64,000 nucleotides of DNA. It comes from Eutypa lata. Taxonomy: Eukaryota > Ascomycota > Sordariomycetes > Xylariales > Diatrypaceae. This document shows positions 51,306 to 53,649 of this stretch, in pieces. Position numbers and translations under genes: made by a program. Location: assembly GCA_022661535.1 (NCBI GenBank), contig JAKULF010000006.1, forward strand, positions 310,001 through 374,000, written 5' to 3'. The notes below the pieces were generated by a model, which saw nothing but the letters and a program-made list of their open reading frames with translations, was not told where the DNA came from and did no database searches. How positions within the stretch are numbered: the first letter of the stretch is position 1; every line of letters begins with the position of its first letter.

Positions 51306-53076
51306 CAACTGGGCGTGTTGAATTATTTGCCGGACCTCTAGAGTAAGGGGTAACTGGATAATAACTACTACCCTTTGTTCCTTAGCGCCTAGCAAAGATG
51401 CCTAGAGATCGTATAGTAAAGATGGATAAATACTACCATGTAACTAACGTTTTATTCGTCTTACTTCAAGAGGAGGAGGAAATAGGAACACAAAAAACAT
51501 GGTTCCTGCCTACCTAGCTACATATTAACTAAGATTCTGACCATCACCCTGTAACAGAGAAGGAAGTCCGTAGCTTCTTATGTAAGTTTCGAGAGGTTCT
51601 AGGCCTCCCGTGGGCTTTAATGCTCGATACGACGTAATTCACACCTTCTAAATCTATATCAAATTTTGTGGCAGGAAGCACCACGGTCTACCTACCATCT
51701 GTCACTCTCTTTGGGGGCAAGTATATACTCCCTGGTACCAACAGCTCAGCCGCCAGTGGCATAAAACCCCTCTTCCCTCAGTAATTATCTTCAACCCTTT
51801 CTCTTCTTCAAACCCATCACATTCAACACTATCATGTTCTTCACCACTGACCACTCTCCTCTCTATTCCTCTTTTCCTTATACCCATCTGTATCTTCTTC
51901 TAAGACTCAGAATATTAACCTGTAAGGGTTGATGATCATCACAGTCTTAGTGGCCCCTACGACAACCAATATGAGTTTACCAATCCATGGTATTCTCATT
52001 CCCAATGGGGCCAGGTTAACTTAGTTGCTTTGTATCACGGGTATTTACTAACCACCCAACGTGATACGCCTCGGTGTTCGAGGGTGGACCGTCGAGCCAC
52101 CCTATGACGATCATCAGTAAAGCAGTGCCATACGGCTCTCTGGCTTGCCAGAACTAATGCATTTCTCCATCCCATTGTTCAGATGATGTTTTCAGTGGAA
52201 TGTGAAACCCTCAGTCCCAAGTTTGAACCCCCTGTACTTTACCAGGCTCAGCCACTTTTAATGTAAGAATGATCGAAAAGATCTCCTGTGCACAAAGAGC
52301 TTATCATCACCTGAGAGATTGACAGCTAGCTAGTAGGCTTGCTTAAGCCTTGTTTCCCTGGTCTCCTGGGGAAAACTTTTTTCTTTTTTGGAAAGTATTC
52401 ATGTAAAGAAAGGTGGTTGCAATAACAAAAGGAAAATGTATGACAACTGATCCTGTAAATAACCAGGGAAGGGCAAAGGTCGATCGATGCATGAGACATG
52501 ATAGGTAACTAGAACTGAATGGGGGACAGTCCTAGTCCTGATGGGAGACGACGAAATAAGATGAAGAATCTAGCCGTGAAGAAATAAAAGGAAACTTTGT
52601 ATAGCGATCTTACCTTTGCGGATAAACAGGTACTGATGTTCATTTTATTTCAATGCGCCGGCGATTTTCTTAGATATTGTCTCCTTAATAGTGGTCTTCT
52701 GCGACGGAGACATAAAAAATATCAAATATTCATCGTAAAATATCCATATGATCATGATGGGGAAAGATGATGAGGGACAAAAACTGAGGTAGAGTTTGGG
52801 TTGGGATAGTTTCTGAGCGTATTCATGAATTTATATGTGACGGACTTACAGAAAAGGCAGTCATGGGAGAGCAGGTACATGTAGATACTACTTAGGTACG
52901 TACCTCTAGATACTACGGAGTTAGGCAGGCCTGGAGCACTGTGACTGGACTGGTTAAACCTCGGATGAAAGAAAGCCCCATAATAACGAGGACAGGCGTA
53001 ATTGTCACCTCGCACAGCGCTAGGTATTTATATGACTATAATGCAAGCTTTTCTCCAACAACAAGCAGCTTCAGCT
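51306..53076. other. Unique DNA right of the repeat block
   Basis: Normal base composition returns at once. Short open frames only (51702-51887 and 52752-53015, minus), without domains. The stretch may hold decayed gene or transposon fragments, but none can be identified by reading. Confidence 0.5.
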
Positions 53077-53106
53077 GCCCGGTTAGCTCAATCGGTAGAG
53101 CGCGAG

Positions 53107-53158
53107 GTAATTCTTTCTTCCTAGCTCTTCCATTGGCTTTAACTAACTCCTAGATTAG
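53107..53158 (+). other. 52-nt GT...AG insertion inside the tRNA anticodon stem
   Basis: Begins GTAATT, has a pyrimidine tract (53111-53131), a branch-site-like TTAACTAAC (CTAAC at 53143-53147) and ends TTAG 11 nt later. Length and signals equal the spliceosomal introns of protein genes in this window. An AG shared by both borders makes the exact joint ambiguous by two bases. Confidence 0.7.
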
Positions 53159-53165
53159 ACTCTTA

Positions 53166-53179
53166 ATCAATAGAGGTTT
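53166..53179 (+). other. 14-nt canonical-site tRNA intron
   Basis: Sits one nucleotide 3' of the CTT anticodon, the usual position for nuclear tRNA introns. ATC occurs at both borders, so the joint could be shifted by up to three bases; the canonical site is chosen. Confidence 0.75.
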
Positions 53180-53215
53180 ATCTCGAGGTTGCGGGTTCGA
53201 CCCCCGCATCGGGCT

Positions 53216-53649
53216 CTATTCCCGGTGCATCTCGTTCAAGCGAGACACTTCGAACCATTTCTTTTTTTGCCTTTCCCCCTTCTTTTTTATCGTTGATCCA
53301 TCCTACTGAGTAGGCCTTGCTTAGTGAGAGAGAAAGATAGATAGATAGAGATGTCTTTGGTGGCACTGGGTTCTTTCTTTCTTTCTGCTTTGCTCTGTTG
53401 ATAGGCGTATAAGTATTTTGTCTATTCTCAAGGGGGGTGGAGCACGGTTTTGGTATGGTTTCCACCCTCTCCTTTCTCGTGTTAGATAGCAAGTAGCAAG
53501 TAGGAAGGTAAAGGGAGGTTACTTCGAAATAGAGTACATTATTATAATATTATACTGAAGCAGGTAGAACAAGTGAACTACAAGCACCATTATCTGTCTA
53601 TCGTGTTGTTTGAGACAAGATCAACTTTAATAATACCTTCCCTCTTCCT
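53216..53649. other. Intergenic region between tRNA and GMC oxidoreductase
   Basis: Contains the tRNA trailer, GA/GATA microsatellite (about 53327-53352) and the 3' flank of the GMC gene. No further gene is seen. Confidence 0.6.
53262..53268 (+). terminator. Pol III terminator candidate (T7)
   Basis: First T-run of four or more downstream of the tRNA, 47 nt past its 3' end. Confidence 0.45.

Follow-up and report, generated by a model that had tools for sequence, protein, structure and literature searches.

The introns of tRNAs and those removed by the spliceosome are usually seen as separate, each kind having its own enzymes and often its own location in the cell. Eukaryotic tRNA genes contain an A box and a B box and are followed by a T run, and their canonical intron lies between positions 37 and 38, from where it is removed by the tRNA endonuclease and a Trl1-type ligase. 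We know of no tRNA with an intron of the spliceosomal type, and a limited search of literature titles and abstract openings, which is a weak negative, found none. Two kinds of unusual intron are already known, namely mRNA-like introns of the U6 type in Pol III RNAs and multiple introns in tRNA genes of archaea, red algae and nucleomorphs (accessible part of PMC4090602). In Schizosaccharomyces pombe, U6 has an mRNA-type intron that is removed by the spliceosome from the Pol III transcript (Tani and Ohshima, cited in the accessible parts of PMC8917221 and PMC10484740). For tRNAs, the same part of PMC4090602 lists introns at 30/31 in archaea and two-intron genes in nucleomorphs, and reports a tRNA-Lys(CUU) that is split at 30/31 in Nanoarchaeum equitans and some Staphylothermus. 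The accessible parts of two nucleomorph papers (PMC4035089; PMC6461891) contain nothing on spliceosomal introns in tRNA.

The tRNA-Lys genes described here, from the ascomycete Eutypa lata, resemble S. pombe U6 in apparently placing an mRNA-type intron in a short structured Pol III RNA (PMC8917221 and PMC10484740, same parts), but their host is a tRNA, they occur in several copies and as two isoacceptors, and their second intron is of the tRNA type. This second intron (insert 2) is like the canonical eukaryotic tRNA intron, including its pairing with the anticodon loop, whereas insert 1 sits in the anticodon stem and carries spliceosomal signals. With archaea, Cyanidioschyzon and nucleomorphs the Lys genes share the presence of more than one intron, and with archaea the 30/31 site (same part of PMC4090602); however, insert 1 has GT-AG ends and a branch-like motif, shows no bulge-helix-bulge in what is a weak test, and resides in a fungal nucleus. 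The split gene of Nanoarchaeum equitans and Staphylothermus agrees in isoacceptor and junction, but here the parts lie within one gene, and the match is taken as a coincidence. A leader hairpin that extends to tRNA nucleotide 2 and a trailer complementary to the 3' half of the tRNA are further features newly noted here.

Five interrupted tRNA-Lys genes

The window, i.e., the whole 64-kb stretch that was analysed, comprises bases 310001-374000 of contig C2 in a genome of 54.5 Mb and 29 contigs. Its forward strand contains a tRNA-Lys(CTT) gene with two inserts at 53077-53215. Exon 1 (53077..53106) supplies tRNA nucleotides 1-30, with the A box, and is followed by insert 1 (53107..53158, 52 nt); the seven nucleotides of exon 2 (53159..53165) are tRNA nucleotides 31-37, with the anticodon CTT at 53162-53164, and after insert 2 (53166..53179, 14 nt) exon 3 (53180..53215) provides nucleotides 38-73 and the B box GGTTCGACCCC. 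Without both inserts the gene reads as a 73-nt tRNA-Lys(CTT) with every stem paired and one G-U pair in the acceptor stem. The sequence-only reading had proposed the removal of 53107-53158 and 53166-53179, and its coordinates and lengths proved exact. In this copy insert 1 could be shifted by at most 2 nt, and one of the three placements gives exact GT...AG ends. Upstream, a TATA-like element (TATTTATAT, 53025..53033, forward strand) has counterparts before the other Lys copies; since similar elements also precede several non-Lys tRNA genes and U6, it is not Lys-specific. Downstream, a conserved trailer (53216..53261) leads to a run of seven Ts (53262..53268), the probable Pol III terminator, both on the forward strand.

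A BLAST search of the genome with this gene found five full-length loci on five contigs, four with a CTT and one with a TTT anticodon. Besides the window copy, these are the tRNA-Lys(CTT) genes at C6:183716-183854, C5:5297010-5297149 and C24:852270-852415, and the tRNA-Lys(TTT) gene at C11:2831412-2831551. Both inserts are present in all five, one of 52-60 nt at 30/31 and one of 12-14 nt at 37/38, so the 14-nt insert was rightly placed at the usual tRNA intron site and the 52-nt insert, assigned from the window alone to the interval between nucleotides 30 and 31, occupies an equivalent site in each paralogue. Because five paralogues carry the pair, the two inserts in the window gene are, by comparison of the copies, beyond chance. 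The A box, the B box and a downstream T run are present in the Lys genes, the T run following a trailer of 45-47 nt. After intron removal, all five mature sequences fit tRNA-Lys, with U33 and the anticodon CTT or TTT, the stem-by-stem check having been made on the CTT sequence.

ARAGORN, and Rfam at its gathering threshold, reported no tRNA in the 64-kb window, and its calls at the five Lys loci were Tyr, Arg, Pro, Asn and, in one case, a Lys(ttt) containing one unusual intron. The gene structures were therefore read from the alignment. In addition, three of the five copies were scanned for all readings with a single insert, and for all two-insert readings with a GT-AG insert upstream of a 37/38 intron, in which the anticodon stem has all five pairs, position 33 is U and position 37 is a purine. 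Each of the three yielded one reading only, which is Lys with insert 1 at 30/31. A single large intron, running from the anticodon loop to 37/38 with the anticodon in the first part, would allow a CGAGG-UCUCG stem with one G-U pair; however, it places an A at position 33 and its anticodon-like triplets vary among the copies, and single-insert readings were rejected in the scan of the three copies, none having both U33 and a purine at 37. We regard such an intron as exceedingly improbable.

The divergence among the five copies is concentrated in the inserts. Mean pairwise identity is 0.99 for exon 1, 0.98 for exon 3 and 0.94 for exon 2, a figure that includes the anticodon change, and falls in the inserts, to 0.64 (insert 1) and 0.68 (insert 2). 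The mature 73-nt tRNA-Lys(CTT) is identical among the C2, C6, C5 and C24 copies, and the tRNA-Lys(TTT) of C11 differs from it at four exon bases, with C27-G43 replaced by U27-A43 and pairing thus kept. Because the exons barely diverge while the inserts do, the five loci are probably functioning, intron-bearing Lys genes and not decayed copies. The C11 TTT gene shares the intron, the leader and the trailer with the CTT genes, so that one Lys isoacceptor probably derives from the other, with the intron already present at the time.

No intact nuclear tRNA-Lys gene was detected elsewhere in the genome by BLAST and two anticodon-arm patterns. BLAST with the joined mature CTT and TTT sequences matched nothing but the five interrupted genes, each in separate halves, and a single uninterrupted tRNA of 85% identity, which was rejected as an intact Lys because it is tRNA-Arg(TCT). 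An uninterrupted anticodon-arm pattern allowing up to two mismatches gave 17 matches, against 20 in a reversed control, with no recognisable tRNA-Lys among the 12 loci given to ARAGORN (0 tRNAs) or the five judged from their matched letters. A second pattern with one mismatch likewise gave 17 matches (10 in the control) and no recognisable tRNA-Lys; here ARAGORN was run at six loci, one match is the Arg(TCT) gene, and the ten matches on C19 and C25 were assessed from their letters and their contig, some of them being read. At the six loci ARAGORN reported two tRNAs, Thr(cgt) and a Pyl call, whose matched letters are identical; the tRNA genes recognised among the one-mismatch matches comprise Arg(TCT), Thr(CGT) and some of organelle-like type. 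An uninterrupted Lys(TTT) of very different sequence does occur on the 44.8-kb contig C19, which is judged to be organelle-like by its tRNAs. An Rfam search of the genome, in which 63 of 1970 candidates were scored, found at least 62 tRNAs and none at the five Lys loci, a result that is no proof that intact Lys is absent. A nuclear genome cannot do without tRNA-Lys, and insert 1 therefore has to be removed, barring an intact copy that is missing from the assembly or very divergent.

Organelle-like tRNA clusters were seen on C3, C19, C23 and C25, with an identical tRNA-Phe/Leu pair on C3, C23 (twice) and C25; the repeats on C3, C23 and C25 are possibly mitochondrial DNA assembled several times.

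Candidate routes of insert removal

The ends of insert 1 resemble those of U2-type introns, for which the consensus is GT...AG with a 5' site like GTRNGT. Its 5' ends read GTAATT (C2), GTACGA (C6), GTATGT (C5), GTACGA (C24) and GTACGT (C11), so that GTA is found in all five copies, G at position 5 in four and an exact GTRNGT in two (C5 and C11), the window copy having the weakest 5' splice site. The 3' end is TAG in C2, C6, C5 and C24 and CAG in C11, which gives GT-AG ends throughout, and a branch-like motif lies in the expected range, 10-30 nt upstream of the 3' end, in every copy (CTAAC in C2, CTGAC in C6, CTAAT in C5 and C24, TTAAT in C11). In the window gene the putative branch site is at 53143..53147 on the forward strand, with the branch A at 53146, and the equivalent motif is in place in all five copies; the YTRAY adenosine is 12-14 nt from the 3' end, as measured by script in four copies and counted from the sequence in the window copy (13), where the script gave only the overlapping TTAAC. 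The exon joint reads GAG/A, which resembles mRNA exon joints. Moreover, insert 1 lacks any run of four Ts in all five copies although its T content is 38-45%, an absence matched by only 7 of 1000 dinucleotide-shuffled sets (the copies being paralogues and thus not independent); because T runs are stop signals for Pol III, this avoidance fits a Pol III transcript. The insert 1 signals shared among the copies are likewise not independent, since the copies are paralogues.

Three mRNA introns of the same genome served as a yardstick, an ambiguous candidate in the 5' part of the thiolase gene being excluded. Two are kinesin introns placed by protein alignment (GTAAGT..ACTAAC..AAG and GTGCGT..ACTGACC..TAG), and the third is a thiolase intron placed by eye (GTAAAT..TTAACC..CAG). 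These introns, and that of U6 described below, show signals of the kind found in insert 1, and one kinesin intron carries a run of seven Ts, unlike insert 1. The kinesin is up to 95% identical to a Monosporascus protein over 88% of the query, and an Spt3 protein whose gene lies in the window shows 91% identity to those of Diatrype stigma and a Monosporascus; by these identities the organism should be a member of the Xylariales close to the Diatrypaceae. Judged by its ends and branch-like motif, insert 1 looks like a U2-type spliceosomal intron, and there is a good chance that it is the spliceosome that removes it. The earlier suspicion of a real double-intron tRNA gene gains support from the five copies; the signals of insert 1 are, however, spliceosomal-like.

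Insert 2, in contrast to insert 1, is of the type cut by the endonuclease. In all five copies its AGAG forms a four-pair helix with the anticodon loop, including one G-U pair. At the cardinal A-I pair, between position 32 and intron position -3, three copies have C-G; the window copy and C11 have C-U there. By its 37/38 site and its pairing with the anticodon loop, insert 2 is an ordinary tRNA intron. A search for a bulge-helix-bulge with a full four-pair central helix gave 0 of 5 for insert 1 and also 0 of 5 for insert 2, and this test does not discriminate because insert 2 fails as well.

That a Pol III RNA can be spliced by the spliceosome in this fungus is suggested by its U6 gene. The single Rfam U6 match (47 of 2960 candidates scored; reverse strand of locus L026, 1566-1620, near 1132945-1133057 of contig C1 in assembly G000) starts inside an intron. 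The gene reads GATACAG/GTTAGT...TTCTAACTATTAAACAG/AGAAGATTAGCATGG, i.e., with a 55-nt mRNA-type intron (GTTAGT..TCTAAC..CAG) directly 5' of AGAAGATTAG and with a B-box-like GCATTCGATTC inside the intron; what precedes the intron we take to be the U6 5' exon, recognised by eye against known U6 sequences. Because U6 has an mRNA-type intron here and a precedent in S. pombe, the spliceosome very probably does splice a Pol III RNA in this fungus.

The reading that best suits these data, and one that we consider rather likely, is that the five loci are working tRNA-Lys genes in which the spliceosome takes out insert 1 and the tRNA endonuclease and ligase take out insert 2. Pol III would produce a precursor of about 215-225 nt from the leader, assumed to be 25 nt long, to the T run. 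The spliceosome would then excise insert 1 as a GT-AG intron and join nucleotides 30 and 31, completing the anticodon stem, after which the tRNA endonuclease and ligase would excise insert 2 at 37/38.

Two other accounts have to be set against this one. The tRNA endonuclease might cut at both inserts, insert 1 being an ectopic tRNA intron of the kind known from archaea, red algae and nucleomorphs, with GT-AG ends by coincidence. Archaeal 30/31 introns and two-intron nucleomorph genes are on record (PMC4090602, in the part accessible), and insert 2 is itself of the endonuclease type; yet GTA, the branch-like site and YAG are conserved in all five copies while the interior of insert 1 mostly varies, and the missing four-pair helix at insert 1 points the same way, weakly, given that insert 2 lacks it too. 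Removal of both inserts by the endonuclease is therefore improbable in our judgement. Still less probable is that the five loci form a tRNA-Lys family of dead or SINE-like copies, in which case the genuine Lys genes would be absent from the assembly or too divergent to be found. Members of a repeat family can have common flanks and inserts, the completeness of the assembly is unproven, and Rfam scored only the fraction of tRNA candidates given above. However, divergence over the whole length, as in a SINE family, is not what is observed, for the exons hardly diverge and the inserts do: four CTT exon sets are identical while their introns differ, the TTT copy has a compensatory pair, the A and B boxes and T runs are intact, and the BLAST search with the mature sequence reached as far as tRNA-Arg(TCT) without retrieving an intact Lys. 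With four further copies, identical mature CTT sequences and no intact nuclear Lys detected, the view that the window gene is not simply decayed has held.

Leader, trailer and folding of the precursor

In the window copy the leader hairpin GCAGC-UUCA-GCUGC (53065..53078, forward strand) has a 3' arm that ends at tRNA nucleotide 2, and in all five copies the hairpin ends exactly there; one of its pairs is G-U in C5 and in C24, and in C11 a C-G pair is replaced by U-A. The flanks were compared with those of 29 nuclear control tRNA genes, which are locus L001 and 28 of 40 further loci (L059, where ARAGORN called nothing, was dropped, as were the 11 loci that lie on C3, C19, C23 and C25, the contigs of organelle-like character). 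Any 5-bp leader hairpin reaching nucleotides 1-4 was found in 4 of these 29. The Lys trailers are 45-47 nt long before the T run, against a control median of 6 nt, with one control longer (63 nt), and the first run of at least four Ts after the tRNA body follows the trailer in all five Lys copies.

The trailer contains two stretches complementary to the tRNA. A CCCGRTGC-type stretch pairs over 8 bp with the tRNA sequence GCATCGGG (in the window, 53221-53228 with 53206-53213), and a TCGAACC-type stretch pairs over 6-7 bp with GGTTCGA of the T arm (53250-53256 with 53194-53200); both pairings are found in all five copies, and in all five the two stretches flank, in register, a small hairpin (53230-53245 in the window), all on the forward strand. 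Trailer substitutions mostly keep the pairing, with one of 15 trailer pairs broken in two of the five copies, and consensus pairs changed on both sides number only 4 of 50. Because 4 of the 29 controls have a single tRNA-trailer complement of at least 7 bp, one complement alone is unremarkable; two in register in five copies are, from the alignment, striking.

In folding models of the unspliced precursor, the last 25 tRNA nucleotides pair with the trailer at a mean probability of 0.58 in C2, 0.56 in C6, 0.59 in C5, 0.31 in C24 and 0.59 in C11, while the value is at most 0.02 in 29 of 29 controls, whose trailers are mostly short, which favours low pairing (five are at least 24 nt). With insert 1 removed, the number of shuffled trailers per 100 that pair as well is 0 for C2, 1 for C6, 0 for C5, 10 for C24 and 1 for C11. 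The trailer-paired fold is favoured over the cloverleaf by 14.0 (C2), 8.5 (C6), 7.5 (C5), 3.8 (C24) and 10.6 (C11) kcal/mol in the unspliced precursor and by 7.4, 5.3, 6.3, 2.0 and 4.9 kcal/mol, respectively, once insert 1 is removed. Removal of insert 1 thus shifts the model toward the cloverleaf in all five copies and flips the balance in none, in a model that has no tertiary structure, proteins or modification and in which removing any insert is expected to shift the balance somewhat. When the trailer is deleted from the unspliced precursor, the T arm is restored in four copies (0.67-0.99) and absent in C11 (0.02), and the acceptor stem is still held down by the leader (0.00-0.50). A low acceptor-stem probability alone is not evidence because 5 of the 29 controls have a value of 0.12 or less in their own flanks; the pairing with the trailer is. 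In the folding models, leader and trailer would together keep the precursor out of the cloverleaf.

These models raise the possibility, toward which we lean slightly less than away, that leader and trailer act as a lock on the precursor. More speculatively, the leader hairpin and the trailer might hold the acceptor and T arms away from the cloverleaf until insert 1 is removed, and such a lock might keep RNase P, RNase Z, the endonuclease and export waiting for the spliceosome to do its work; the acceptor and T arms would then be freed by an RNA chaperone or by trimming of the trailer. The introns could also be as proposed and the flanks serve La binding, termination or stability, or be remnants of an inverted duplication, with no lock at all. 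This has not quite an even chance in our estimate, a little above that of the lock. The five flanks are related by descent, and among the controls a trailer complement of 7 bp or more, a leader hairpin and a poorly formed acceptor stem each occur in the few genes counted above; trailer substitutions that mostly preserve pairing, the C-G to U-A change in the C11 leader, and the two stretches in register around a hairpin in every copy argue for the lock.

Interrupted tRNAs elsewhere and meaning of the Lys genes

Patterns for the interrupted gene, its 5' half or its 3' half had no match in a viral contig collection, and those for the interrupted gene and the 5' half had none in genome contigs of bacteria, archaea and viruses. 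In the Eutypa genome, 656 B boxes were counted, against 431 in a reversed control. The first 100 places (C1 and part of C2) were followed up, with the window's own gene and two tRNA-Asp left out and the other 97 fetched in 89 regions; a strict filter passed 10 of the 97 as tRNA-like, and in the four of these ten that were put through the reading scan no additional tRNA with a GT-AG interruption could be made out.

Two other groups of elements came to light. A tRNA-like family beginning with GCCGCGTGGTGTAATGGTTGCACACTCTCAC has 15 members, at L162-L171 and five more places, with L094 the same as L162 and L131 among the five. The arm of L131 can be read as Arg(CCT) if a 34-nt insert is placed between positions 32 and 33, not at 37/38; of the ten copies read, three (L162, L167 and L171) are without U33 in this reading, and the T stem of six contains a bulged A. 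The other group, L089, L137 and L151 on C1 and C2, is a family of elements of 179-199 nt whose 5' end is tRNA-like and whose 3' end is of the acceptor/T-arm type (GCCAGGT...ACCAGGC). They contain a second B box, with a T run starting 3-6 nt past the end, and may be SINE-like or an odd Pol III gene.

If the tRNA-Lys genes are spliced as proposed, a Pol III precursor destined for a cloverleaf would prove open to the spliceosome, and the idea that introns can originate by reverse splicing into non-coding RNA would gain support. Such splicing would also tie the translation of AAA and AAG codons to the capacity for splicing and explain why these Lys genes are overlooked by annotation programs. That every nuclear Lys gene depends on the spliceosome and in addition carries a precursor lock, coupling the supply of tRNA-Lys to splicing capacity, is a bolder proposal that we put forward tentatively, with rather more doubt than confidence.
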